A stretch of 27,723 nt of DNA from a virus: IMG/VR virus record IMGVR_UViG_3300031746_000132, positions 1 to 27,723 of that record; one strand, 5' to 3'. Positions 3,225 through 27,229 of the stretch are shown one piece after another. Positions within the stretch are counted from its first letter, which is position 1. Each line of letters opens with the position of its first letter. The position numbers and the translations under genes are program-made. The notes beneath the pieces were generated by a model. The model was not told where the DNA came from and searched no databases. It worked only from the letters and a program-made list of their open reading frames with translations.

Positions 3225-4450
3225 CATCCTTTGTATCCCCATTTACAGGTGATGTAATATTACCTACGGACGTCAGCTATGCTGACTATACGCTAGACGG
3301 AGACGTACAACTGCAATGGCCTGCTGACGCCACTGGTACAGAGAACCCAGCTGCTAGGATTATGGACATCACTGGCGATACTGGCGTTCTTATCATGCCA
3401 ACAGCTAATCAGGTATCAGTTGGTCAAGACGCCCTAATCCGTAACGTAAGCGGTATGAACTTTGATGTTAATAACTTCGATGGCGGAGTTATCGCAACGG
3501 TAGAAGCTGGCAAGGCTTCTTACTTGTATCTGACTAGCAATGCTACTACAGCAGGCGTCTGGGGAATCATTGACTTCGGTACAGGAACATCATCTGCCGA
3601 TGCTTCTCTATTGGCTGGCTTGGGATTGGTTGCAATCTCCACGACCCTTAATCAGAGTCACCCAACATCTTCAATGTCAGATGGATATACTTTACTGGAC
3701 ACCGATAGAGCGCAAACCAAAATTTGGGGAAGTGGCTCTGGTACGGTAACCCTACCATTGTCAAATACTCTTGGGAACAATTGGTTCTTTATATTTAAGA
3801 ACAATGGCTCTGGAACGCTTACCATTGACTGCTCTGGTGCTGAGACTATTGACGGTCTGGTAGAAAAACAATTCAATCCAGATGAGTCTGCATTTATCAT
3901 ATGCACTGGCACAGAATACGTTTCCGTAGGATATGGGCAGAGTAACTCATTCTTCTTTACGGTTTTAGTTAAACCCGTAGAAGACGGAACTTACTACCTA
4001 ACATCTACTGAAAATTTAGCCATCATCCAAGAGTATGTTGGTGTACTTATAGGTGATGTAACGGTAGTATATTTACCGATTGTTAACCTATACATAGTTA
4101 CCAACCAGACAACTGATAATGGCTTTACATTATCAATAACCACAGGATTTGGCAATACAGTCGAAATACCACCCGGACAGACTGCTTCAGTTGTTTGTGA
4201 TGGCACTGACTTCTTTAATGCCAATACTGTTCAGGCTGGTGCTACATCCCTCAATCTAATTGATGGAACGGTAGGAACGCCAGCCATTAACTTTTCCAAC
4301 GAAACAAACACAGGTATCTGGAGGTCAGGTGCTGGTGAGATTGATATTGCTGTATTGGGTGTGAACAGACTATCCTTAACTGCAACTGGTTTTACTGTAG
4401 ATGGAACTGGTACATTTATTGACGGTATTTCTGGTGGGGTATTCACGTGA
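3221..4450 (+). CDS. Beta-rich virion/tail protein between adaptor and nozzle
   Basis: 409 residues, Gly/Thr/Ser/Asn-rich with few long helices. Residues from about 20 to 335 look like three variants of one beta domain, each with an alternating strand, a NN or GSG turn and a late C(T/D)GT turn (for example SGTLTIDCSGAETIDG and FIICTGTEYVSVGYG, later SVVCDGTDFF). The last 65 residues (NFSNETNTGIWRSGAGEI... and RLSLTATGFTVDGTGTF) are typical of fibre stems or trimeric tail decorations. It overlaps the adaptor (ATGA) and the nozzle (GTGA), so it is made with the tail hub. A tail-spike or collar decoration is a reasonable inference, but no receptor-binding or enzymatic motif is visible. Confidence 0.55.
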   Translation: MTSFVSPFTGDVILPTDVSYADYTLDGDVQLQWPADATGTENPAARIMDITGDTGVLIMPTANQVSVGQDALIRNVSGMNFDVNNFDGGVIATVEAGKASYLYLTSNATTAGVWGIIDFGTGTSSADASLLAGLGLVAISTTLNQSHPTSSMSDGYTLLDTDRAQTKIWGSGSGTVTLPLSNTLGNNWFFIFKNNGSGTLTIDCSGAETIDGLVEKQFNPDESAFIICTGTEYVSVGYGQSNSFFFTVLVKPVEDGTYYLTSTENLAIIQEYVGVLIGDVTVVYLPIVNLYIVTNQTTDNGFTLSITTGFGNTVEIPPGQTASVVCDGTDFFNANTVQAGATSLNLIDGTVGTPAINFSNETNTGIWRSGAGEIDIAVLGVNRLSLTATGFTVDGTGTFIDGISGGVFT

Positions 4451-6450
4451 CCGCCAAGGTATTTGCACTAGATACACAGCCCGGTATTCAACGGGACGGC
4501 ACCATCTTTGACAAGAATTTCTATAATTCTGGTCGTTGGGTAAGATTCCAACGTGCTAGACCACGTAAGATTTTAGGATTCAGAGAAATTTCTGCAATAT
4601 TAGCAGGGCCATCACGAGGTATATACGTTAACCCACAAAATAATTTCAACTATGTTTTTAATGGGTACGCTGATGGGCTTCAGGTTCTACCTATAACCAA
4701 TACTGGCGTTGGCTCTGGGCTATTAGATTTTACTCTGTCTGAATTCACTCCTAGCGCTAATAACCTATGGCAGTTTGATTCACTATTTGATGCACAGGGA
4801 ACTGGCAATGAGACCCTATTGGCTCACCCCGGATTAAACCTGTCTGACATTAATAACTCTACCAATACTCCAGTCCTTGGTGGCGATATAACTGGCACGA
4901 CAGCGTCCCCAATTGGGGTGTTTACAGACACTGGTGGGTGTTCTAATGCAGACACATTCCTAACATTAGACGCATCTAGCATACTAGTTGGAGCTGGTCA
5001 GCTAGTCACTGGCGCATCCATTCCAGACGGAACTACCGTTGTATCTGTGGTAGGTGCTGTCGTTAACCTATCCGCCGCCGTTACTGGCACCGAGGCTTCA
5101 CCAACTACATTTACATTTGATAACCAAGTATCGGTATCTGGTGGTGTTGTTGTGTTGCACCCATATGTATTCGTATACGGAAACAATGGATTAATAAAGA
5201 ACTGTGCGGCAGGCAACACAAGCAATTGGGTGTCATCAGACTCTAACGAAACTAACGTAGCGTCCACTAAGGTTGTTCAAGGTTTACCAGTGCGGGGCGG
5301 CTCAAATGCTCCGTCTGGTCTTTTTTGGACTCTTGATTCTCTGGTCAGGGTTTCGTACACGCCAACCACAGTAACTATTGGGGCAACCGCATCTACCTTC
5401 TACTGGAGATATGACATCATATCTAGCCAGTCTTCAATACTGTCTAGCCAGTGTGTAATTGAATACGATGGTATCTATTACTGGATTGGCGTTGATAGGT
5501 TCATGCTATACAACGGTGTTGTAAAAGAAATACCAAACAACATGAACCAGAATTACTTCTTCGACAATCTTAATTACAATGAAAGACAGAAGGTCTACGC
5601 CACCAAGGTTCCTAGATTTGGTGAGATATGGTGGTTCTTCCCTAGTGGAGACTCAACAGAATGCGACGATTGCATAATCTACAACATCCGTGAGAACTGT
5701 TGGTATGACGCTGGAACTGCTGTGGGAGCAAGACGCTCTGCTGGATACTTCTCTCAGGTATTCCATTATCCCATAAATGCTGGAACAGAAATCAATGATA
5801 CTGGAGCTGTCAATCTATTTACTATAAGCAATGCTGGCTCTGGGTACACTGATGGAGTTTATCCTCTTACGGAATTAATTGGTGGCACTGGCACTGGAGC
5901 TTACGCAGACATTACCGTTGTTGGTGGTGTTGTTACAGAAGTGGTTATAGCTATTCGTGGTCTAGGTTATACAGTAGGAGATACGCTTACTTGCCCAGAC
6001 CTACCAGTTGGAATCGACTTTGCGATTACGCTTACATACGTCATGGACTACGTGTCTCTATGGCAACATGAGTTTGGAGTAAATTCTGTTAAGGGTGGGA
6101 TTGTGTTAGCCCTTGAAAGCTACTTTGAGACAAATGACCTAGGTTGGGTATCTGGAGGCCCTTCACAACCATCTATGATGGGTGAGAACAAATGGATTAG
6201 GGTAGAAAGAATCGAGCCTGACTTCGTTCAGGTTGGTGAGATGGAATGCTACGTAACTGGAAGACCTTATGCTCAGGCAGACGATGAGACTACAGGCCCT
6301 TACCTATTCGACCCAGACACACACAAGATTGACATGAAGGAACAGCGTAGAGAGATGCGACTAAAGTTTGTGTCTAATACACTTAATGGCAACTACCAAG
6401 TTGGTAGGCTGCTGCTTAACGCAACCTTTGGAGACGTTCGTGGCTATTAA
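4447..6450 (+). CDS. Tail nozzle / stabilisation protein (P22 gp10- or SU10-nozzle-like)
   Basis: 667 residues. The opening (PGIQRDGTIFDKNFYNSGRW...RPRKILGFREI) and the later block (IEYDGIYYWIGVDRFMLYNGVVKEIPNNM...FDNLNYNERQKVYATKVPRFGEIWWFFPSG) are diagnostic of podoviral nozzle proteins that close the short tail and hold DNA in. The C-terminus (MKEQRREMRLKFVSNTLNGNYQVGRLLL) is also family-typical. Two beta domains look inserted: about 159-224, and about 459-530, the latter the widespread phage module SGYTDGVY...GGTGTGAYADITVVGG...GLGYTVGDTLT. It starts with GTG overlapping the previous stop and is followed, with an 11-bp overlap, by a small gene. Confidence 0.75.
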   Translation: MTAKVFALDTQPGIQRDGTIFDKNFYNSGRWVRFQRARPRKILGFREISAILAGPSRGIYVNPQNNFNYVFNGYADGLQVLPITNTGVGSGLLDFTLSEFTPSANNLWQFDSLFDAQGTGNETLLAHPGLNLSDINNSTNTPVLGGDITGTTASPIGVFTDTGGCSNADTFLTLDASSILVGAGQLVTGASIPDGTTVVSVVGAVVNLSAAVTGTEASPTTFTFDNQVSVSGGVVVLHPYVFVYGNNGLIKNCAAGNTSNWVSSDSNETNVASTKVVQGLPVRGGSNAPSGLFWTLDSLVRVSYTPTTVTIGATASTFYWRYDIISSQSSILSSQCVIEYDGIYYWIGVDRFMLYNGVVKEIPNNMNQNYFFDNLNYNERQKVYATKVPRFGEIWWFFPSGDSTECDDCIIYNIRENCWYDAGTAVGARRSAGYFSQVFHYPINAGTEINDTGAVNLFTISNAGSGYTDGVYPLTELIGGTGTGAYADITVVGGVVTEVVIAIRGLGYTVGDTLTCPDLPVGIDFAITLTYVMDYVSLWQHEFGVNSVKGGIVLALESYFETNDLGWVSGGPSQPSMMGENKWIRVERIEPDFVQVGEMECYVTGRPYAQADDETTGPYLFDPDTHKIDMKEQRREMRLKFVSNTLNGNYQVGRLLLNATFGDVRGY

Positions 6451-6697
6451 TACCGCCCCAATAGTTGACCCACGCCATATGGATTTCCAGTATTGGGCAG
6501 AGATTATGTGTGACCAGTTTGCCACACAGCAACTAGAGATGCCTAGCAAGGACACCGACTGGAAGAAATGGGCGAACGGTCTCAAGGCTATTGACATATT
6601 TAACAACGAAGGTATGCCAGACGCATCTGCATTTGATAACTGGCATGAGTGGGCTGAGGCTTTAGTGTTAACAGTTAACATAAGTAGGGTGGCATGA
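6440..6697 (+). CDS. Small unknown phage protein downstream of nozzle
   Basis: The GTG at 6440, with GGAG about six to seven bases upstream, is preferred. The longer open frame begins inside the nozzle gene in another frame and gives an unlikely N-terminus. The resulting 85 residues are acidic and Trp-rich (DFQYWAEIMCDQF; DTDWKKWANGLKAIDIFN; FDNWHEWAEALV), predicted helical, soluble and without signal peptide. It overlaps the acyl carrier protein gene by ATGA, so it is the immediate upstream partner of the lipid-type cassette as well as the last gene of the nozzle block. No family recognised. Confidence 0.6.
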   Translation: MAINTAPIVDPRHMDFQYWAEIMCDQFATQQLEMPSKDTDWKKWANGLKAIDIFNNEGMPDASAFDNWHEWAEALVLTVNISRVA

Positions 6698-6978
6698 TTA
6701 ACTTCATTGACCTATTTAATGCTGTATCTAAGACATCCAGACCGTCTCATTGTAGGAATGCCGTAGCTACCTCGATGAGTGACTCGTTTGAGGATATAGG
6801 CATAGACAGTTTAGACGGACTAGTAATGATGATGTACCTCACTGACGTATATGGCGTCAGCGAGGAAGTGTCCAAGGGATGGGTGCCAACCACTCTACAG
6901 GAGATATATGACCTCCTGATGGCACACAAGACTAAAGAACCTACCTCAATAGATGACGTAATAGACTACATTAAATGA
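6694..6978 (+). CDS. Acyl carrier protein
   Basis: 94 residues, the size of a free-standing ACP. The phosphopantetheine attachment site is intact: GIDSLDGLVMMMYL (about 36-49) matches the (D/E)xGxDSLxxxx(L/M) motif, with Ser39 as the predicted carrier serine at the start of helix II. The acidic second half (DVYGVSEEVSKGWVPTTLQEIYDLL) fits helices III-IV. ACP shuttles acyl chains as thioesters after modification by a host phosphopantetheinyl transferase. ATGA overlaps on both sides tie it to the small gene upstream and the ketosynthase downstream, so its natural partner is probably the ketosynthase. The C-terminus (TSIDDVIDYIK) extends a little beyond a minimal ACP. Confidence 0.85.
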   Translation: MINFIDLFNAVSKTSRPSHCRNAVATSMSDSFEDIGIDSLDGLVMMMYLTDVYGVSEEVSKGWVPTTLQEIYDLLMAHKTKEPTSIDDVIDYIK

Positions 6979-8087
6979 TTTACCTAACCCACTACAGGTC
7001 ACTGTCAACAACGAATGCAGAGCTATTTGATGATGTCGTGTACCCACAGAGAGTGCATTGGTTCCCAGAGATTTACGCCAAGATTAAGTCTGGCTTGTTC
7101 TATGTCCCACACAAGATAGCTGAAAAGGTTATTGACCCAGAGCTGTGCAAGTATCTCAGGGAGAACCACGTAGGCAAGACTGCCTTCATTCTAGCTGGTG
7201 GGAATGCTCACTTTGCTGGTATCAATCCACGCCACTACCCAGACAACAAGTTGTCATACAACTACAAGTTCTTGCCATTTAGCTTGACTCAAGTATTTGC
7301 TGGACGTACAGCCCAGTCATTTGGTCAGATAGACCAAGTGGTAACGGACGCGTCTGCCTGTGCCTCTAGCCTGAAGGTTATGATGGATGTGCAGACCCTA
7401 ATCCGTTTCTATGGATTTGATAGGGTTATTGTCCTATCCGTAGAGGATGGCATATCTAACGCCATACTTGAGTTCTTTGGTGAAGCTAAAGCTGTTTTGA
7501 CCGAGGAACAGGAACAACAGGGAATTAAGCCGTCCGCCTTCGATAGCAAGAACTTTGGCTTCAGGATAGGTCAGGGAGCCGCCTTAGCTGTGTTTGAATC
7601 CGAGAGAGCTACCAACATACTAGGCACCACCCCACACGCCGAGTTTCTAGGGGCATACAGCGCGTCAGAACAGTCAACCAATGCCATCGGTCAACGTGAA
7701 GACGGAGAGGGCTTTAAGAAGGCTATACAGGGCGCTATAGACATGGCTGATGTAAAGGCTAGTGAGATTAAGATAGTCAAGGCTCACGGAACTGGTACAG
7801 CATCTAATAACGCATCCGAGTCTGCGGCACTACTTGCCATGATTCCCGACTTCATTGCTACGTCATACAAGCAAAAAATAGGTCATACTATGGGTAGTAG
7901 CGGATTATTAGAGACTTTATTGCTGTTGGACGACATGAAAAATGGCTTTGTGCCAGCTATTGAGAACAGAACTGAGATAGATTTGGTATTTCTTTCTCAC
8001 AAAGCACCTAGCCCAGATGGGTTAATTTTAAGTTTGGCAGCTGGTATGGGTAACATCTACTCTGCCGCAATCTTCAGGGAGTTGTAA
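6975..8087 (+). CDS. Beta-ketoacyl-ACP synthase (KAS I/II, FabF-like) with complete catalytic residues
   Basis: 370 residues of thiolase-fold condensing enzyme. The nucleophile is Cys129 in VTDASACASSL. The two histidines are His271 in KAHGTGTASN and His304 in KIGHTMGSSG, with Lys299 five residues before the second. The Cys-His and His-His spacings (142 and 33) are close to those of FabF. The C-terminus ends in a glycine-rich strand (LSLAAGMGN). About 34 residues are missing before the cysteine relative to FabF, so the N-terminal part is shortened and may have an altered dimer interface or acyl pocket. It would condense malonyl-ACP with acyl-ACP. The gene lies between nozzle and ejection genes, not in any fatty-acid operon, and overlaps ACP by ATGA. 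Confidence 0.85.
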   Translation: MIYLTHYRSLSTTNAELFDDVVYPQRVHWFPEIYAKIKSGLFYVPHKIAEKVIDPELCKYLRENHVGKTAFILAGGNAHFAGINPRHYPDNKLSYNYKFLPFSLTQVFAGRTAQSFGQIDQVVTDASACASSLKVMMDVQTLIRFYGFDRVIVLSVEDGISNAILEFFGEAKAVLTEEQEQQGIKPSAFDSKNFGFRIGQGAALAVFESERATNILGTTPHAEFLGAYSASEQSTNAIGQREDGEGFKKAIQGAIDMADVKASEIKIVKAHGTGTASNNASESAALLAMIPDFIATSYKQKIGHTMGSSGLLETLLLLDDMKNGFVPAIENRTEIDLVFLSHKAPSPDGLILSLAAGMGNIYSAAIFREL

Positions 8088-8539
8088 TGGCACAGGTCGT
8101 TGACAGTAAGCAAAAAGAACTTGACACCAATGCAATCATTACGATTGCCATACAAGAGACTGGGGTACAACTAGATGTTGGTACCGCATATGCGTCTATT
8201 ATTAATGAGATTAAGTCCAAGGGAACCACGGCTATCAGAGAAGGCAATACCATATTTATCATACATCATGCTAAGGACAGAATAGGTACATTCAGACCCC
8301 TGAACGCTGACACGGCACGTAACTACATTAATAACGTAAGTACATTTCTTACAGCCGCCTATAACATTGGCTTTGATACCCTATATACACAATTCCAAGA
8401 CCCGACTCTATTGTCCCTATTCAAAATAATCTTCAAGTCTAAGCCACCAGAGACAAAGATGGGCTACGCAATCAAGCGCACCCAAAACGATGGATACTCA
8501 GCCACTATAAAACTTGGCGAACCGAGGGGGAGTAAATAA
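8087..8539 (+). CDS. Unknown protein of the ACP/KAS cassette, possibly GNAT-like
   Basis: 150 residues, TAATG-coupled to the ketosynthase and to the next virion gene. No clear family motif. The predicted order from about residue 55 is strand (NTIFIIHH), strand (RIGTFRPL), long helix (TARNYINNVSTFLTAAYNIGF), strand (DTLYTQF), helix (PTLLSLFKIIFKS) and a beta hairpin (MGYAIKRTQ...YSATIKLG). This resembles the helix-strand-helix-hairpin end of the GNAT acyltransferase fold. If correct, it could transfer an acyl group made by the preceding two genes, but this rests on secondary-structure reading only. A small virion protein is the main alternative. Confidence 0.45.
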   Translation: MAQVVDSKQKELDTNAIITIAIQETGVQLDVGTAYASIINEIKSKGTTAIREGNTIFIIHHAKDRIGTFRPLNADTARNYINNVSTFLTAAYNIGFDTLYTQFQDPTLLSLFKIIFKSKPPETKMGYAIKRTQNDGYSATIKLGEPRGSK

Positions 8540-9978
8540 TGGGAGCCGTCGCTAGTTTCGTTGCAGACGTTGTAACAGCGCCAGTTCAGGCAGTTGTGCC
8601 ATGGGTTGGATTTGGTAGTGGTAGCGGTGGTGGCTTACTTGGTGGAATAACTGATGCTGTTGGTGACGTATTTGATGCCGCTGGCGATGTCGTAGAGTTT
8701 GTAACTGAAGAGGTCGTTGAGCCAGTATTGCAAGAGGCTGTAAGGCAAGTTGAAAGGGCTGTTGAAGACCCAATAGGCACAGCGGCTATGGTTTTGTCCG
8801 TAATGTATCCGCCAGCTGCCCCATTTATTATGCCAGCAGCCACTGCCTTAAAGGGCGGTAACCTAGAGGACATAGCTCTTAGTGCAGGTCTGTCTTATCT
8901 TGGAAGCGAGATAGCTACAAATTACGCTCCTGACGTGGCGTCTATCTTACCAGATGGCATTACAGACGCAACCGCAAGGCAGATAACAAATGTCGGAACT
9001 AACGCCCTTGTTGCTGGAACCAAGGCCGAGATTAATGGTGGAGATTTCTTTGATGTGGCAGGTAATGCTCTTATTACTGGTGGAATAACAGCTGGCGTTA
9101 GCGATGTCGTAAACTTCGCCAAGAACGAATACGACTCTTACACTCCGACAATGACGGATGTGCCAGTACAGGATACGCTTGCCACACCAGACACACCAGA
9201 TGCTCCAGTAGCTACACCACTAGAGCCTGTTGATATGCCTACTGTATCTACAGACGATACATCTAACGCACTTCCGCTATCAACTGGTGTAGATGCACAG
9301 AACATTATCAACGAATACGGTCAGACAACAGAGACCCCTACAACCAATGCCCAATTAGATGGCAGTGCGGTTCCCACAAGTTTATCTGACCTAGTTAATA
9401 CAGAGGTAGCCACACCCGGAGGTGTCAATCAGGCTCCAACTGGTGGTCTTGCGGCTGTGTCTGATACCATGACAAGTCAGCCAGTAGCCGTCTCTGGACT
9501 TGGGGACAAGACAGCCACAGTAGCTACAGATATTGGTGCAATTAATAGAGCCGCCGATGAGACACCTCAACCAGTAGCTCGTAATGCCGCTGATATGCCA
9601 ACCACACAAGTTGCGGTTGAGCAACCAACTGAACAACTTGCTGAGCAACCAAAAGAAGAGCCTAGCAAGCTAGGGGCGGCGGCAGAAAAGATGTTGACAA
9701 GGGGCGTTACAGGAGCGCTTACTGGTGCCGCTATGGGTGCAGTTAGACCAACTGGTGGATTGCCTCGTAGGGCTATGCCAAACAAGTTGTCACCAACACA
9801 AATAGCTACCATGAGGATGAGGCAACAGGCTCCAGCGCCAGCTCCGCTGATACCAACAGTAGCGCCTAGTACCGCGAACCAATATAAAGCACCAGCTCAG
9901 TATGCTGATATAAGCGCATTGACACCAGTTTCCAATATTTCTGGATTGACAGCACTACTAAAGAGGTTGAGGGGATAA
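8539..9978 (+). CDS. Probable internal virion / ejection protein
   Basis: 479 residues in two parts. Residues 1-200 are Gly/Ala/Val-rich with amphipathic helices and glycine-zipper-like stretches (GGGLLGGITDAVGDVF; PAAPFIMPAATALKGG; NALITGGITAGVSDVV). The rest is low-complexity Pro/Thr/Asp/Gln linker (PVQDTLATPDTPDAPVATPL and similar). It ends with a small hydrophobic or basic segment and ISALTPVSNISGLTALLKRLRG. Pore-like helical N-terminus and disordered linker are common in podoviral ejection proteins that leave the capsid with the DNA. The location, first of four such genes before the transglycosylase, agrees. No catalytic motif. TAATG junction upstream. Confidence 0.5.
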   Translation: MGAVASFVADVVTAPVQAVVPWVGFGSGSGGGLLGGITDAVGDVFDAAGDVVEFVTEEVVEPVLQEAVRQVERAVEDPIGTAAMVLSVMYPPAAPFIMPAATALKGGNLEDIALSAGLSYLGSEIATNYAPDVASILPDGITDATARQITNVGTNALVAGTKAEINGGDFFDVAGNALITGGITAGVSDVVNFAKNEYDSYTPTMTDVPVQDTLATPDTPDAPVATPLEPVDMPTVSTDDTSNALPLSTGVDAQNIINEYGQTTETPTTNAQLDGSAVPTSLSDLVNTEVATPGGVNQAPTGGLAAVSDTMTSQPVAVSGLGDKTATVATDIGAINRAADETPQPVARNAADMPTTQVAVEQPTEQLAEQPKEEPSKLGAAAEKMLTRGVTGALTGAAMGAVRPTGGLPRRAMPNKLSPTQIATMRMRQQAPAPAPLIPTVAPSTANQYKAPAQYADISALTPVSNISGLTALLKRLRG

Positions 9979-9981
9979 ATT

Positions 9982-11823
9982 ATGGCAATTTTAGTTAAAA
10001 AGGGTGACCCAAATCCAACCCCTACCTTTGGTAGCATTGGGACATTAGGGACTGCTGGAATCCATGCCCCAGTTACCTCTACCGTAATCCCATCTGGTGC
10101 GACGCCTACTGTACCGTCAGGCGGTGTAGCGCCTAGTAGTCCCACATCAATTACTCAGCCAACTGGCACATCAACAGTTCAAAAGCCAGTTGTATCTCCA
10201 CCTAGCACTAGTTCACCAATTACTAGTACGCTTGTCGGTGCTGGAGCTGGAGCGATTGCAGGTAACTTATTAAACGCCAAGACTGGCAAGACACTAACTG
10301 ACCTATTGGGAATCACCAAGCCTGCAACCATGCCCACAGGTGGTGCAACTGGTTCTGGCTCGTCTGGTGTTGGAGCAAAGCCTATAACTGGTGGTCTACC
10401 AAGTCTTCCAGCAGATAGAACCAACTTGGGTGGTGGATACTACCAAGACTCCAACGGGAATATGTACGACGGAAGCGGGAACTTAGTTCTTTCAAGCAAT
10501 GGTGAAAATGGGTATATATACTTTGGAGACCCAAATCATCCAGTTTATTTTGATAAGGATTACAATGAAATATCAAACCCAGACACTGGGATACCGTACA
10601 TAGACACCTCTGGAGCCACTGTGGTTGACGGCACGCCTACAGATACACCTAGCACTACTGTTGCAGACTCTGGATACATGATGGACGAACAGGGAAATAT
10701 ATACGATAGCGAAGGAAACTTTATTTCTTATGCTGATGGCTCTGTATATGACCCAACAGACGAATTTGATAGCCTTGCAAGTGACGACACTCAATATTTA
10801 ATCCCTTTCATGGAAGAAGCCAAAGATGGCGGACTAATAACTATGATGAAAAATGGCGGTAATGTTCAGCGCTTTGCTGATGGTGGTGATGTGTCTCAGG
10901 ACTTGTTAGACGCAGGCTACTCTGATAATGGGGATGGAACATATTCAACAACCCTAAATGACGGCAGTTCGTTTATGGTTGACTCTAGTGGCAACCCAGT
11001 AATTTCTAATGCAGAAGAGGATGCCACTGCAATTGGTGCCCCAACACCAAGTGGACAAGTTGGCTCCACAACAGATTCTACATTTGGATTGTCTGCTGTT
11101 ACGGATTTGCTTAAAAGTGGTGGAGTTCAGGGTGCGCTAGTTGGGTCATTGATAGCTCAACTACTAAACAGCTCTGGCTCATCTGGTGGTCAGAACAAAG
11201 GCGTAGATATGTCTAAGGTGGGAGCGCTAACCCCACGCACGACTAACTTCGGTATAGGGCCTGCCAACGTAGTCACAGCCGACCAGTACAGAAACCCTGT
11301 AGGGACAGGCACAGACATCTATGGCGGTACAGACTTGTACCATAACCTGAATGCTCCGGGGTTCAATCCTGTTAACCCAGAGCCTACACCAGCCGTAGCC
11401 CCAACAGCACCACCTATGGCAAATGGAGGACTAGCATCATCTGGTCAAACACATTACACTTTCGGTAAGCAAGTTTCACCTATGGAAAACATGGGGCTTG
11501 CCCCACAGGCTATGAAGAGTGGAGGTCTACCTAGACCAAGTGGCGTACCCATGGTAGAGGGTAGGAATGACTACAGAATGGGTGCGGCTGTTAGCGGAGC
11601 AGGAACTGGTCAGTCAGATGACATACCAGCGATGCTCGCAGATGGAGAATACGTCTTGGACTCGGACTTGGTATCAATGTTGGGAGACGGTTCCAACAAA
11701 GCTGGCTCACAGATTCTAGACAAATGGCGTGAAGAGATTCGCAGACACAAAAGGTCTGCTCCAGTGAATAAGATACCGCCACCAGCAAAATCGCCACTGG
11801 CGTACATGAAAGGGATTAAATAA
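9982..11823 (+). CDS. Large low-complexity internal virion protein
   Basis: 613 residues. N-terminal Pro/Thr/Ser/Gly linker (1-75), an Ala/Gly helix (VGAGAGAIAGNLLNA), then repeated short Asn/Gly/Tyr motifs: GNMYDGSGNLV near 158 and GNIYDSEGNFIS near 238. From about 285 there are several Gly-Gly patches (GGLITMM, RFADGGDV, MANGGLASSG). The C-terminus has the recurrent phage segment SDDIPAMLADGEYVLDSDLV...LGDGSNKAGSQILD and ends basic (RRHKRSAPVNKIPPPAKSP). That C-terminal block is widely seen in internal or structural phage proteins. Start supported by GAGGGG about seven bases upstream. The stop is TAATG-coupled to the next gene. Probably ejected or capsid-internal; precise role unknown. Confidence 0.5.
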   Translation: MAILVKKGDPNPTPTFGSIGTLGTAGIHAPVTSTVIPSGATPTVPSGGVAPSSPTSITQPTGTSTVQKPVVSPPSTSSPITSTLVGAGAGAIAGNLLNAKTGKTLTDLLGITKPATMPTGGATGSGSSGVGAKPITGGLPSLPADRTNLGGGYYQDSNGNMYDGSGNLVLSSNGENGYIYFGDPNHPVYFDKDYNEISNPDTGIPYIDTSGATVVDGTPTDTPSTTVADSGYMMDEQGNIYDSEGNFISYADGSVYDPTDEFDSLASDDTQYLIPFMEEAKDGGLITMMKNGGNVQRFADGGDVSQDLLDAGYSDNGDGTYSTTLNDGSSFMVDSSGNPVISNAEEDATAIGAPTPSGQVGSTTDSTFGLSAVTDLLKSGGVQGALVGSLIAQLLNSSGSSGGQNKGVDMSKVGALTPRTTNFGIGPANVVTADQYRNPVGTGTDIYGGTDLYHNLNAPGFNPVNPEPTPAVAPTAPPMANGGLASSGQTHYTFGKQVSPMENMGLAPQAMKSGGLPRPSGVPMVEGRNDYRMGAAVSGAGTGQSDDIPAMLADGEYVLDSDLVSMLGDGSNKAGSQILDKWREEIRRHKRSAPVNKIPPPAKSPLAYMKGIK

Positions 11824-12782
11824 TGGCTGACTTATTCCAAGGCTCACCACTACCAGCTGTCACCTCTACGGCACAGACGCAAGCAACTGCGCCTGAGTTC
11901 TACACTAACTACCTACAGGATATCGCTAACCTAGGGCAGAACGCGGTTACACAAGGTGGCGTAGCAGGCCCATCTGCTTTACAACAGCAAGCCTATAACA
12001 TGGCTCCCAATGTAGCCTTTGCTGGCTCTGGGAGTATGGGTGCTGGTTCACAGCTACTAGGTCAGGTTGGAACGACTACAGCCCCAGACGTGGTTCAGAA
12101 CTACATGAACCCATACACACGCAATGTTACTGACGAGATGGCTCGTCTACAACAGCAAAACATCCAACAGAATGTGTTGCCTAATCTGGGTGCAGCTGGA
12201 GTTTCATCTGGTAGTTTTGGCTCTTCCCGTGGAGCTAACGCCACAGGCCAGACCCTAGCTAATATGCAAGCCAACCTAATGGGTCAACAGACTGGTGCAT
12301 TACAGACAGGCTATCAGAACGCTACTACAGCCGCGCAGAACGACTTGTCACGCCAGTTACAAGCTGGTCAGTCCTTTGGTAACTTAGGAGCTCAGCAACA
12401 GGCTCTGGGGATTGGTGGTTTGAATGAGCTATCTACTCTAGGTGGTCAACAACAAGCCACTCAGCAGAACATACTAAACAACCCTATGCTTCAGGCTCAG
12501 AACTTTTCTAGGCTGATGTCTGGGTATCAAATACCATCTGGTAGCACTTCCCAGACTGTAGGGCCACAAGCTGGAGCTTACTCGAATAGCCCACTGTCCC
12601 AGATAGCTGGGTTAGGTTCTTTGATTGCATCCTTATATGGTCAAGGTAGGGTAATAGACACTACCCCACCCAAAAAGGACGGTGGCTCAGTTGGCTACGC
12701 AGATGGTGGTGAAGTAGGGAGTCCAGCTTACCATGATGGTAATGGTAATTTATATGATGCTAACGGCTACTTGGTGAGTTAA
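11823..12782 (+). CDS. Gln/Asn/Gly-rich internal virion protein
   Basis: 319 residues. The centre is a long Gln/Ala/Asn-rich helical region (LQQQNIQQNVLPNLGAAG; GYQNATTAAQNDLSRQLQAG), preceded by NYMNPYTRNVTDEMARLQQQ, a segment I associate with phage internal or DNA-ejection proteins. A hydrophobic helix (SQIAGLGSLIASLYG) lies at about 257-272. The C-terminus carries YADGGEV and GNGNLYDANGYLVS, which match motifs in the 613-residue neighbour. Gene order (between two other low-complexity virion proteins and the transglycosylase) supports an ejection-complex component. No enzymatic motif is visible. Confidence 0.55.
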   Translation: MADLFQGSPLPAVTSTAQTQATAPEFYTNYLQDIANLGQNAVTQGGVAGPSALQQQAYNMAPNVAFAGSGSMGAGSQLLGQVGTTTAPDVVQNYMNPYTRNVTDEMARLQQQNIQQNVLPNLGAAGVSSGSFGSSRGANATGQTLANMQANLMGQQTGALQTGYQNATTAAQNDLSRQLQAGQSFGNLGAQQQALGIGGLNELSTLGGQQQATQQNILNNPMLQAQNFSRLMSGYQIPSGSTSQTVGPQAGAYSNSPLSQIAGLGSLIASLYGQGRVIDTTPPKKDGGSVGYADGGEVGSPAYHDGNGNLYDANGYLVS

Positions 12783-12784
12783 TT

Positions 12785-14524
12785 ATGGCAAGTCCTTTAC
12801 AGCAAATGGCACCACCACCCCCTACAATTGACCCCAAGGCTCAACAAGAGGGTATTGTTGCTAACATGATTACAGAGGCTCCACAGAAATCTGCTGAGGA
12901 TGACTATCTTCAGTCAGTTCTTGCGAAGAGCAGTCTCGCCTCGAAACAACTAAGTGACCAAATGGAGTTGATGAGGTCAAACCTTGACCGTAGAACTAAC
13001 ATCCCATTTGACCCAACTTTGATGCAAGCCGCAGCTGGATTTCTAGCGCCGACTAAGACTGGTTCGTTTGGTGAGTCATTGGGAGCCGCCGCTGGAAATG
13101 CCGCAACACAGGCAGAGAAGGACTGGCTAAGAAACCAAGAGACCGAGAAGATTAAGATGGAGCTTGCACAGAAACAGGCTCTGCTACAACAGCAAGTGTC
13201 TGGTAGGGAATTCCTAACGCAACAAGGTGCATTTGGGGAGCCTCGTGGAACTGCTCAGCCATCTGGAGGCGCTACTGGAGTCTCAACAGGCTCGGTGGAC
13301 TCCGCTACTGGGGTAGCTACTGGTGCAGGCTCCGCTACAGGTGCAACACAGAGACCTCGTGGTTGGGTGACAGAGAGGGACATCTCTATAGCTGAGGCTA
13401 TTGGAGACCCATCTACAATTAAGCACATTGAAGATAAGTACAAGAGACAACAAGAGCAAGAGAAGCAAGATACGGAAAAGAAAAGGGTTGAGCAAGGTGA
13501 GTATGGTCAGAAGTTCACACCTTACCTATTGAACGACCCAATAGAGGGAATCTCAGTCAAGCAACGTGGCTTGTATGAGGCAGCGCTTGAAAGATTTAAC
13601 AAGACACATAACGAGCAAGAGCTTCTTGAATTCTACGATAGACTAGGTTGGTTGCCTCCTGAGTCACGCACACCAACAGGGTACAAAACGCCATTAAGCA
13701 AATATGAGAGAGAGTCTCAGCAAGCTGGTAATAAGGCTTTCTCTGAGCAAGCAGCAAAGGAGGATGTGGCAGACCAAACAACCCTTTTGGACAATTATAA
13801 AATAGCTCCACAGCAAATTGCTTTGGCTAGGGAAGCCAAGTCTTTAGCTATTAGCGCACCCAACGCATTTAAACTGCTAAACAACAAAGACTACCGCACA
13901 TGGTGGGACGGATTGTCAGCAGCCGCTAAGGCTGGCATAACAACGCCCGGTGGAACTATCAGTATCCCAACCGACATCCTTGAGCAGTCTGGATTAACTA
14001 ACACCGAAATTCAGGCACTGCAAAACTTTGCCACAATTGAGGCTAGGTTCTCACTTACAAATGCTCGTACATACTTAAAGGGTCAGGGGTCTGTGTCCAA
14101 CATGGAGCGTGACCTCGTTGCTCAGCTAGGCACTAGGTCTAGCGACAGACCAGAAGTTATCCAGATGAAGGCTGACGCCATTGAACTGAGAGCTGACTTT
14201 GATAAAAAGCTATATCTGGCATACGACTCATGGAGAGACAAGAACGAACACGCTCCTATGAGAAAATTTATTACCTCTGCTGACTATGACAAGGTTGTTG
14301 ATAAATATGCATCGGATGGGCAGAAGTTAATAAAAGCTAATGCTGAGTACATAAAGCAAGGTGCGTCAACTACAGCCAAGCCTACTACCACAGCCAAGCC
14401 TACTGCTACGACACCAGACACGACAGCACCAGCCACTACAACACCAACACCTGCGAAGACTACAGAAACATTCATGCAGAGGCTGAATAGACTTCGTAAA
14501 GAAGACAAAAAGGGTAAACCATAA
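12785..14524 (+). CDS. Helical internal virion / ejection protein
   Basis: 579 residues. Region 60-150 is a coiled, Gln/Ala/Glu-rich helix (NAATQAEKDWLRNQETEKIK; MELAQKQALLQQQVSGREFL), preceded by FDPTLMQAAAGFLAPTKTGSFGESLG, which recurs in podoviral internal proteins. Residues about 300-490 form a globular helical domain (LLDNYKIAPQQIALAREAKS; LEQSGLTNTEIQALQNFATI; YLKGQGSVSNMERDLVAQL). The segment after residue 520 is a Thr/Pro/Ala/Lys repeat linker (TTAKPTTTAKPTATTPD...) ending in a basic helix (QRLNRLRKEDKKGKP). It is coupled to the transglycosylase (TAATG). The basic tail could contact DNA, by inference. Confidence 0.55.
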   Translation: MASPLQQMAPPPPTIDPKAQQEGIVANMITEAPQKSAEDDYLQSVLAKSSLASKQLSDQMELMRSNLDRRTNIPFDPTLMQAAAGFLAPTKTGSFGESLGAAAGNAATQAEKDWLRNQETEKIKMELAQKQALLQQQVSGREFLTQQGAFGEPRGTAQPSGGATGVSTGSVDSATGVATGAGSATGATQRPRGWVTERDISIAEAIGDPSTIKHIEDKYKRQQEQEKQDTEKKRVEQGEYGQKFTPYLLNDPIEGISVKQRGLYEAALERFNKTHNEQELLEFYDRLGWLPPESRTPTGYKTPLSKYERESQQAGNKAFSEQAAKEDVADQTTLLDNYKIAPQQIALAREAKSLAISAPNAFKLLNNKDYRTWWDGLSAAAKAGITTPGGTISIPTDILEQSGLTNTEIQALQNFATIEARFSLTNARTYLKGQGSVSNMERDLVAQLGTRSSDRPEVIQMKADAIELRADFDKKLYLAYDSWRDKNEHAPMRKFITSADYDKVVDKYASDGQKLIKANAEYIKQGASTTAKPTTTAKPTATTPDTTAPATTTPTPAKTTETFMQRLNRLRKEDKKGKP

Positions 14525-16122
14525 TGCCGATAGACTTGGAGTCGCTAACACCTCAGCAAAGAAACGTAGCTGCAATGGTAGCGGAGGAGGCTGTGAAGCA
14601 GGGTGTTGACCCAGAGTTTGCCGTTTCTATTGCCTTGCAAGAGAGTGGTCTCAATGTAGGCGTAAAGAAGTCATCCAATGGTGCTATTGGTGTAATGCAA
14701 ATTATGCCAGATACAGCTAAGTCATTTGGCGTCAATCCAAATGATTTGCCTGAAAACATCAAGGGTGGCGTATCTAACATTAAAGAATTGTTTACGACAT
14801 ATGGCTCTCCATTCAAGGTGGCTGTTGGGTATAACTCAAGCACAGCAACAAGGAAAAAGTTTAATGAGCTGTACACTCAAGACCCAGATGCGGCAATCAG
14901 AAGCCTACCCCCAGAGACTAGGAAGTATCTAGAGGGCGTTGGTCAGAATTATAATCTGGATGAGCCAGCTCCTAGTGGAGATGAGTTTGTTCCATCGGCT
15001 ACAGGGTTTGCTCAACAGAATGCTGAAGCACCAAAACAGAGAGACTCTGTGGATAATGTTATTGCCGCTGGGCAACAGCACCCACTTGCAACTGGTGCGG
15101 CACTTGGTGCAGCCAAAGGATTAGCTGAGAAGGCAATATTTAATCCTAGCCTACCCTCTAGTAAAGAGTCACTAATGGCTGATGAGCGCCTAGCGCGTGC
15201 CAAGGCACAAGAAGGTATTATCCGTGGTCGCATGGGTATGAATGAGGGTGTATCTCACTTTGTAGACCAACCTCTAGAAAGCCAATTTGCATCACAGCTA
15301 CCTGAAGCAGAGAGACAAGCCGCTGCCGCTGAAGAAGCGCTTAGGGCGTCTGGTGCCAAGGTTCAGGGTGCGTCTGGTGCATCTAACTGGATGAGGACTA
15401 TGGCTGGTCAACAGCATCAATTGCCAGAGAACATACTAGCCTCAGCTACCGACATGACCAAGGCTAGTCCTACTGGCGGACAGAGACTAATTAACGAAGA
15501 CTTGCTTAATCTTAAAAAGATACAGGGCATGGGTGCTGGCAACTACTCTCTCGTTGGAGAGGGGGCTGGACAGCTTATGCTTCCGCCGGGTGTTGCTACA
15601 GAACGTGGGGCAACATTAGCTGAGCAAGCCAAGGCGGCTCAGGCTCCGCTGTATAATGAGGTGAAAACAACAACGAGTAGGCTGGCTACCGCAAGGGAGG
15701 ACGCCGCTAACGCTTCTGCCCTAGCGAAAGCCAAGGAAAGAACAGCGCTTGCACAGGACACAGCAAATCGCGCTCTCAAGGAACGTCCACCATCTGGGAC
15801 GCTAAAGAACATCGGTCTCAAGGTAGCTAAGTCACCAATATTGTTTAATGCGCTTAGTGGTGCTGGTACAGCATTGTCGGCTGAAGAGGCTTGGGACAGA
15901 TACCAACGTGGTGACTACGGTGGTGCAGTATTGAACACACTAGCTGCTGTGTTTGGTGGGATGTCAATGATACCGCCTGCTGGCCCTTTAGGGATGGCGA
16001 TTAAAGGTGTTGGTACAGTTGGTGGTTTGGGTCTAGCCATACCTACGATAGCGTATGACTATTACAACCCAAAGACCCCACAGAAGAAAGCCCGTGGAGG
16101 ATTAGTCCGCAACTCTCGCTAG
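14524..16122 (+). CDS. Virion lytic transglycosylase (SLT domain) / ejection protein
   Basis: 532 residues. The N-terminal domain (about 10-135) is a soluble lytic transglycosylase: catalytic Glu40 in IALQESGLN, GVMQIMPDTA at 56-65, and AVGYNSST at about 100-107 in place of the usual AYNAG. It would cut glycan strands to open the wall during DNA entry. The remaining roughly 400 residues are Ala/Gln/Glu-rich helices, typical of an ejection protein body, with Ala/Gly hydrophobic stretches near the end (LFNALSGAGTALSAEEA; AVFGGMSMIPPAGPLGMAIK) and a basic tip (KKARGGLVRNSR). It is the last gene of the rightward late block and overlaps the convergent 46-aa gene by 21 bp. Confidence 0.8.
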   Translation: MPIDLESLTPQQRNVAAMVAEEAVKQGVDPEFAVSIALQESGLNVGVKKSSNGAIGVMQIMPDTAKSFGVNPNDLPENIKGGVSNIKELFTTYGSPFKVAVGYNSSTATRKKFNELYTQDPDAAIRSLPPETRKYLEGVGQNYNLDEPAPSGDEFVPSATGFAQQNAEAPKQRDSVDNVIAAGQQHPLATGAALGAAKGLAEKAIFNPSLPSSKESLMADERLARAKAQEGIIRGRMGMNEGVSHFVDQPLESQFASQLPEAERQAAAAEEALRASGAKVQGASGASNWMRTMAGQQHQLPENILASATDMTKASPTGGQRLINEDLLNLKKIQGMGAGNYSLVGEGAGQLMLPPGVATERGATLAEQAKAAQAPLYNEVKTTTSRLATAREDAANASALAKAKERTALAQDTANRALKERPPSGTLKNIGLKVAKSPILFNALSGAGTALSAEEAWDRYQRGDYGGAVLNTLAAVFGGMSMIPPAGPLGMAIKGVGTVGGLGLAIPTIAYDYYNPKTPQKKARGGLVRNSR

Positions 16123-23189: not shown

Positions 23190-23846
23190 ATGAAAGTCTT
23201 GCCCATAAAAAATGAAGAGTCATACCCGTGGTTGCTTGAAAAGCATTATGCAAAACGGATACCACAAATCATGTTTGCGTTTGGTTTATATATCAACGAC
23301 GAGATGAAGGGTGTGGTTACTTTTGGTATACCAGCCTCACCGTCATTGTGTATGGGCATATGTGGACAGGAACACTCCACAATCGTTTTGGAATTGAATA
23401 GGCTTTGCTTGATGGATAACAATAAGAACGAGTCAAGTTTTTTGGTGTCCAACGCTATCAAACTTTTGCCAAGGCCGACGATAGTTGTTTCTTACGCAGA
23501 CAATGCCCAAGGTCACGTTGGATATATTTATCAAGCAACCAATTTTCTATATACAGGATTGTCGGCACATAGGGTTGATTGGACGGTGAAGGGCTTGGAG
23601 CATAAGCATTCAAAGACCATATCTGATGGCATGACACTTGAGTCAATTAAGGCAAAGTACGGTGACGATTTTTACTATACAGAAAGAAGTCGAAAGCACA
23701 GATACATTTTATTTCATGGCTCGAAGACTGATAAGAAAGTTTTGAATAGTAAATTGAAGTATGAGGTGTTGCCGTATCCAAAGGGTGACACAAAAAGATA
23801 TGACTCAGGTGGTGACGTCACAACACAGGGATTATTATTTATATGA
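23190..23846 (+). CDS. Mom-like DNA adenine modification enzyme (GNAT fold)
   Basis: 218 residues. Matches the phage Mu Mom family as I know it: EKHYAKRIP near the start, GVVTFGIPAS (41-50), VLELNRLCLMDN (66-77), FLVSNAIKLLP, and VVSYADNAQGHVGYIYQATN (99-118) followed by FLYTG. Mom converts adenines in phage DNA to N6-carbamoylmethyladenine, protecting it from restriction enzymes. It lies 3' of replication genes, and no com-like regulator is evident. Base composition looks more AT-rich than the helicase region. It overlaps the nuclease gene after it by ATGA. Confidence 0.75.
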   Translation: MKVLPIKNEESYPWLLEKHYAKRIPQIMFAFGLYINDEMKGVVTFGIPASPSLCMGICGQEHSTIVLELNRLCLMDNNKNESSFLVSNAIKLLPRPTIVVSYADNAQGHVGYIYQATNFLYTGLSAHRVDWTVKGLEHKHSKTISDGMTLESIKAKYGDDFYYTERSRKHRYILFHGSKTDKKVLNSKLKYEVLPYPKGDTKRYDSGGDVTTQGLLFI

Positions 23847-26470: not shown

Positions 26471-27229
26471 ATGGGGAAAGTTTACTCTAACCGACAATGT
26501 AGCACGTGCCCCACTATTGGTACGGTGATAGAGTCATGGGGGACTTACTACTGCCGTACTTGCTACGAAGCCAGACCTAAACGAGCCAACGGAAATGGCG
26601 GTATGGTATTTAAGGGGGCAAAAATTGAAGACTATGAACACGATTCTGTCGGTGTGACGCTGGAGAGGTGCAAGAAAAGCCACCCAATTTTTTGCGACTT
26701 ATACCTATCTCATTACCCCGGAAGCAAGGGGATTATGGGTAGGAGTCTGAACTATTTGGTAAGACTAGACGGTATCGTGGCTGGAATTATAGGCGCGAAT
26801 AGCCCTCCGCTCAATTACAAAATTTTCAGGAAGTTTTTTGAAACAGGTGATGAAAATATGTTTCTCAATAATAATGTTTACAGGATGATAAATAACACCA
26901 AGAACCTTGGTACACAAGTTCTTAGAGCTTTTCGCAATACTGTTGCACAAGACTACGAAGATTCTTATGGGGTCAAAATTCTTGGGCTTTGCACTTTTGT
27001 AGAGCCTCCGAGGAGTGGGGCTATTTATCTAGCCGATAACTGGACGTGCCTTGGTGAAACACAAGGAAAGTCGGTGCGAAAACGCGACATGAGTACATGG
27101 GAAAATAAAGAATGGTCACAGGGTACGAAAAAACTTATTTTTGCAATTAAGGCAAAGCCACATAACGTAAAGAAGATGTGGCGCGCTGGTGTTGCAATAC
27201 ACAATATACAACAGGAGTTAGCGATATGA
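26471..27229 (+). CDS. DruA/DUF4338-like protein with N-terminal zinc ribbon
   Basis: 252 residues. Residues 10-31 form a zinc ribbon (C10/C13 and C28/C31). The rest follows the DUF4338 pattern known from DruA of Druantia systems: LNYLVRLDGIVAGIIGANSP, NNVYRMINNTKNLGTQVLRAF (133-153), and TFVEPPRSGAIYLADNW (175-191), then CLGETQGKS. The motif GAIYLADNW aligns with GYIYQATNF of the Mom-like protein, and the preceding segments match in order, so both may share a GNAT-type fold. Molecular role of DruA is not established; here, in a phage, DNA modification or anti-defence is a fair inference. Base composition is AT-rich relative to replication genes. Confidence 0.65.
   Translation: MGKVYSNRQCSTCPTIGTVIESWGTYYCRTCYEARPKRANGNGGMVFKGAKIEDYEHDSVGVTLERCKKSHPIFCDLYLSHYPGSKGIMGRSLNYLVRLDGIVAGIIGANSPPLNYKIFRKFFETGDENMFLNNNVYRMINNTKNLGTQVLRAFRNTVAQDYEDSYGVKILGLCTFVEPPRSGAIYLADNWTCLGETQGKSVRKRDMSTWENKEWSQGTKKLIFAIKAKPHNVKKMWRAGVAIHNIQQELAI

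Follow-up and report, generated by a model that had tools for sequence, protein, structure and literature searches.

Why would a phage keep genes for fatty acid chemistry in the middle of the operon that builds its particle? The question is raised by a linear IMG/VR phage record of 27,723 bases (hereafter the window, meaning the whole stretch analysed), in which the main genes from 4447 to 16122 all lie on the plus strand and include, amid virion genes, an acyl carrier protein (ACP), a FabF-like beta-ketoacyl-ACP synthase or ketosynthase (KS) and a third protein with a GNAT fold. Earlier papers (PMC8224337, PMC11705849, PMC5463345) interpreted phage acpP and fabF as auxiliary metabolic genes, and such genes are usually filed under that heading, whereas here they are invariant members of the operon that builds the particle, in no fewer than 154 distinct sequences. 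A sequence-only reading of the window had suggested that the lipid chemistry serves the particle. The answer that we favour, with a probability of roughly 0.38, is more specific: the ACP and the KS would feed an acyl donor to the GNAT-fold protein for N-terminal acylation of the ejection-type protein encoded by the next gene. If true, this would help to explain how short-tailed phages place their channel in the host envelope.

Gene order and coupling of the locus

The locus opens with a nozzle, or tail tubular B-like, virion protein (4447..6450; PHROG 3287 virion structural protein, E 1.3e-22), which is kept in nearly all relatives. Between it and the ACP sits a small conserved protein of the virion module (6440..6697, 85 aa, GTG start), whose homologues have the same place in 114/129 KS loci among the matches listed, and which has a homologue in Caulobacter phage GB2A, where the cassette is absent. 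The sequence-only reading was right to place the cassette between the nozzle and the ejection genes, but it omitted this small gene, which separates the nozzle from the ACP. There follow the ACP (6694..6978, 94 aa, with Ser39 in a DSLD motif), the KS (6975..8087, 370 aa), the GNAT-fold candidate acyltransferase (8087..8539, 150 aa) and the ejection-type protein (8539..9978), which has the hydrophobic N-terminus MGAVASFVADVV with a candidate acyl acceptor at residue 2 and which follows the GNAT in relatives as well; all of these genes, like those downstream, are on the plus strand. The four proposed couplings can all be read in the sequence, as ATGA at 6694, ATGA at 6975, TAATG at 8087 and TAATG at 8539, and stop and start codons overlap at every junction from the nozzle through 8539. 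Gene 8539-9978 is a further member of the unit, added to the three genes first described.

The remainder of the block consists of an ejection or tape-measure-like protein (9982..11823; weak PHROG tape-measure matches), a probable ejection protein (11823..12782; a weak match to PHROG 4287 DNA ejection protein, E 0.035, and a homologue in GB2A), a protein assigned to the ejection block by position, with no significant Pfam match (12785..14524), and a gp16-like SLT transglycosylase (14524..16122; PF01464, E 1.8e-14), which ends it. The order of nozzle, small protein, ejection proteins and terminal transglycosylase is common to T7 genes 12-13-14-15-16, although T7 has neither ACP nor KS at that place. 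With the nozzle on one side and the gp14-like ejection protein on the other, the GNAT gene corresponds in position to T7 gene 13. The 8539-9978 product holds the place of gp14, the first T7 protein to be ejected and the one that makes the pore in the outer membrane (PMC8954989). Elsewhere in the window, the M15 endolysin gene (2232-2573) has 83-98% identity in many relatives in which the adjoining virion genes have only 46-75%, a pattern that looks, from these identities, as if the gene were horizontally exchanged. Positions 26471-27229 give a weak match, below the cut-off, to Druantia DruA (PF14236, E 8e-5), and positions 23190-23846 strongly match the Mom family of DNA modification (PF25680, E 3.9e-39).

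Carrier protein, ketosynthase and GNAT-fold protein

Taken alone, the window ACP falls below the cut-off of Pfam PF00550 (18.2 bits against 20.8, E 0.003), but when the family profile was searched against the PDB, nearly all of the best 60 matches were acyl carrier proteins and the remainder were complex I ACP subunits. D38-S39 is invariant in the 28 ACPs aligned, and the DS motif with its carrier serine is present in 154/154 distinct relatives, the best-scoring ones in IMG/VR. The KS passes the cut-off of 20.8 bits for both synthase domains (PF00109, 33.1 bits; PF02801, 61.0 bits) and is closest to FabF (E 1.8e-30), but it scores 106 bits against the FabF equivalog TIGR03150, for which the cut-off is 493.75; on these scores it is a distant family and not FabF itself. 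Its residues C129, H271, K299 and H304 are invariant in the 29 KSs aligned, and the catalytic motifs are intact in 154/154 distinct best-scoring relatives. The positions first given for the carrier serine and for the four KS residues are therefore correct. Because the catalytic residues are intact in all these relatives, the KS and the ACP are under selection as working enzymes, and the same count rules out a chance or degraded pseudo-cassette. Compared with bacterial FabF (KAS II) and AcpP, the phage pair has the common Cys-His-His-Lys set, both synthase Pfam domains and the DSL carrier motif, whereas the phage KS is shorter in its N-terminal part and has an invariant Met where FabF has the gate residue Phe400 (Met358 by alignment), the gate motif being GMGN in 154/154 and not GFGG(T)N as in FabF. 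A bacterial source of the KS was rejected, since only one genome contig matched, from a Balneolaceae MAG, and that contig is itself phage-like.

The homology of the KS and the ACP to FabF and AcpP, with active sites intact, also suits a metabolic explanation, in which the two proteins join the fatty acid synthase of the host late in infection and alter chain length, membrane composition or flux. Their position in the virion operon would then do no more than ensure expression at a late stage, with the GNAT as an unrelated neighbour. We regard this as the main rival explanation, somewhat less likely than acylation. Against it, 12 records of 53-62 kb (completeness uncertified) were searched for FabG, FabD, FabA/Z and a phosphopantetheinyl transferase, and no further gene of fatty acid synthesis turned up; the phage would therefore rely on its host for the remaining chemistry under every hypothesis. 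Unlike bacterial type II fatty acid synthesis, the phage pair lies in a virion operon and without other fab genes. The fabG-acpP-fabF clusters of Rhodobacteraceae prophages likewise combine an ACP and a FabF on a phage, but they keep the bacterial fab order with fabG and were read as metabolic (PMC8224337), whereas the present pair comes without fabG and is fixed in place by virion genes on either side. Such a tight association of two fatty acid genes with ejection genes is surprising even if their role is metabolic.

For the third protein, whose sequence family (29 members) gave no usable match in Pfam and PHROG searches, an AlphaFold2 model built with 37 relatives is confident (pLDDT 92.4, pTM 0.86) and has the GNAT order of helices and strands, so that the early description of this gene as GNAT-like is borne out. 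In VIA-align the best match is RimI (Z 11.0, rmsd 3.3, 123 residues), followed by Ard1 (Z 10.4), with NatC and NAA80 close behind and many other GNATs within about 1 to 1.5 Z; because these matches are so closely tied, the N-terminal acetyltransferases do not stand out. Foldseek agrees on a GNAT (E 2e-4) and has FeeM and TofI on its list. RimI, Ard1, NatC and NAA80 acetylate N-termini, and their presence among the best fold matches speaks for the acylation reading; FeeM and TofI take acyl groups from ACP. The phage protein has the fold in common with FeeM, LuxI/TofI, RimI and Ard1, but its identity to them is about 10-15% and it is without the Q/RxxGxG/A loop by which GNATs bind the acyl-CoA pyrophosphate. 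In its place, after strand 4 and before helix 3, stands RxxNxD, with N73 and D75 invariant, and because of this replacement the third protein may be inactive.

The atypical cofactor loop is also what might be expected if the unit worked in assembly and not in catalysis, that is, if acyl-ACP tuned by the KS docked on a degenerate GNAT as a chaperone for the hydrophobic next protein, with no transfer of the chain. Acyl-ACP acts in an analogous way on LYR proteins in mitochondria, and the place of the GNAT at T7 gene 13, just ahead of a membrane-inserting ejection protein, would suit such a role. However, the polar residues E41, N54, N73 and D75 are all invariant in KS-linked GNATs, which exceeds the needs of a scaffold, and we hold a purely chaperone function to be unlikely.

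Linkage to virion genes and the GNAT outside the cassette

KS-first and GNAT-first scans of IMG/VR yielded more than 580 candidate stretches. The relatives are nearly all metagenomic contigs, and the samples are best-scoring relatives, not random ones, so that the counts given here are lower bounds. In the scanned KS loci the ACP, the KS and the GNAT are all present save where a contig end cuts them, and among the distinct KSs examined that had room on their contig, none was without an ACP or without a GNAT. Co-conservation of the three genes is therefore strict wherever the KS occurs. Sequence distances of the KS correlate with those of the nozzle (Spearman 0.83) and of the ACP (0.91), which points to long co-inheritance with virion genes. 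Of the distinct KS loci among the matches listed whose contig reaches 3.5 kb or more upstream, 117/129 have a nozzle. The remaining 12, with no nozzle within the profile's reach, are a second lineage in which the order of the unit is kept behind other upstream genes (in L061, L068 and L309, those examined); one of the 12 is the contig binned with a Balneolaceae genome. In two of these loci, L068 and L061 (2442-3694 in both), a reverse transcriptase (RVT_1, E 1.4e-13) and a small upstream ORF lie close before the cassette and are possibly a diversity-generating retroelement.

In both lineages the cassette always lies among virion genes in the relatives listed, and this fixed residence in two contexts, together with the intact motifs, favours a role in the particle. 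It is harder to reconcile with the metabolic explanation, under which the pair would be expected sometimes to occur elsewhere or without the GNAT, which was never so among distinct KSs with room, and under which gene order need not have been kept in two virion contexts. The converse linkage is looser. In a nozzle-first scan, 75 of the best 80 relatives were without a complete cassette, some of them through contig ends, and in many cassette-less modules the small gene is directly followed by the 9982-type gene. The cultured Caulobacter phage GB2A has this arrangement and is without the GNAT, the KS, the ACP and the next gene (8539-9978 type) together, a joint absence that counts in favour of the acylation reading. 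Among the 188 distinct GNATs listed, the preceding place is held by ACP-KS in 143, by a PF10118 protein in 23 and by only the small gene in 21. In 44-45 of the 188 distinct sequences, then, the GNAT has neither ACP nor KS, the protein that follows it is of the same kind, and the basic job of the GNAT therefore requires neither. On account of such GNATs, first met in the nozzle-first scan, an indivisible three-gene enzyme cassette was rejected, and the missing acyl-CoA loop of the GNAT also speaks against one.

The proposal that the lipid chemistry serves the particle is thus strengthened by the intact motifs, the virion residence, and the GNAT fold and co-conservation, the lack of either of which would have refuted it as first framed, and weakened by the GNATs that occur without ACP and KS and by the atypical loop. 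These last two points keep both the metabolic and the chaperone explanations alive: related phages that carry the GNAT without ACP and KS are compatible with the GNAT being an unrelated neighbour, and a GNAT that pairs with a hydrophobic next protein whether or not ACP and KS are there is compatible with a chaperone.

A further possibility is that the slot from the small gene 6440-6697 to the GNAT is an insertion hot spot that takes unrelated cargo, so that adjacency does not mean shared function. Before the GNAT the slot holds ACP-KS, a PF10118 protein or nothing, and in GNAT-less phages it holds other genes, as a hot spot would. However, a branch of the GNAT tree supported at 100/99 separates the sequences without KS from those linked to ACP-KS, and random cargo would have shuffled more. 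The sole clear exception is L270, a KS-less sequence among the KS-linked GNATs, which is a probable case of ACP-KS loss inside that side of the tree. In 23 distinct loci (e.g. L307, 10461-11159) a PF10118 protein stands in the ACP-KS place before the GNAT. Its confident model (pLDDT 94) is a carboxylate diiron fold that resembles aldehyde deformylating oxygenase, R2lox, methane monooxygenase and ribonucleotide reductase R2 about equally, with Z close to 12, a score that for a helical protein is not strong evidence alone; two invariant ExxH motifs fit this fold. Given this oxidase-like model, the PF10118 protein and ACP-KS could both serve acyl chemistry, which also tells against unrelated cargo, and we regard a hot spot as quite improbable. 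A wider form of the acylation reading would be a phage-encoded protein lipidation, comparable, in prokaryotes, to the myristoylation of animal-virus entry proteins, in which ACP, KS and GNAT place a fatty acyl chain on the N-terminus of an ejection protein of the same phage. A large group of phages from aquatic habitats would carry it, with a PF10118 diiron-oxidase version in a sister group. We offer it tentatively, as less likely to be right than wrong.

The next protein as candidate acceptor

Among the matches listed, the gene after the GNAT begins with Met-Ser or Met-Gly in 161/172 distinct loci, and it does so in 12/12 loci of the second context. In GNAT-less modules the first gene after the small gene starts in this way in 4/34 and has mostly Ala, Pro or Thr at residue 2. 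The Fisher p of 1e-22 for 161/172 versus 4/34 is a description and not a test, because it ignores relatedness and the genes compared are non-homologous. Where the KS is present, residues 3-5 of the next protein are mostly Ala-Val-Val. Dependence of this N-terminus on the KS was ruled out, since KS-less GNAT loci start MGAV or MGSVV, and so was strict N-myristoylation, which takes only Gly, since Ser is commoner with the KS. From these N-termini, it is with the GNAT and not with the KS that the N-terminal form of the next protein goes. In the window product of 8539-9978, residues 2-20 are the most hydrophobic stretch. Such a conserved N-terminus would fit N-terminal acylation and would equally fit a plain membrane helix, and virion genes often encode a small residue at position 2. 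Both points count against the acylation reading, as do the GNATs without ACP and KS and the atypical loop. The 8539-9978 product is nevertheless a candidate target, and a more specific one than the ejection protein or tail part first suggested.

On the acylation reading, genes 6694-8539 and 8539-9978 would form a late, virion-coupled acylation unit. Host AcpS would put phosphopantetheine on Ser39 of the phage ACP, and the KS, through Cys129 with His271 and His304, would build or trap a particular acyl chain on it. After removal of the Met, the GNAT would take this chain from the ACP and attach it to the amine of the N-terminal Gly or Ser of the 8539-9978 protein. In this way the hydrophobic N-terminus of that protein would become anchored in the host envelope while the DNA enters. 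Some membrane-penetrating entry proteins of animal viruses, such as picornavirus VP4 and reovirus mu1, are N-myristoylated by host NMT with myristoyl-CoA and strictly on Gly. If our hypothesis is right, the phage protein would be like them, a virion protein that penetrates membranes and has a lipid on its N-terminal residue, but it differs in that residue 2 is more often Ser, and the enzymes would be phage-encoded. Our search of the open-access literature found no paper on virion-coupled ACP-KS or on lipid-modified phage virion proteins, and, should the acyl chain end there, this would be to our knowledge the first phage ejection protein lipid-modified by enzymes of the phage's own. What the relatives establish is that in many aquatic phages an ACP and a KS stay linked to a protein of GNAT fold and to a membrane-seeking virion protein.

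In L285, L294, L296 and L306 a different small protein, possibly another GNAT, stands in the slot and is followed by a protein starting MGGGGSSG. Octadecabacter virus DB2 has a similar pattern, with an annotated acetyltransferase followed by MSGGGGKG.
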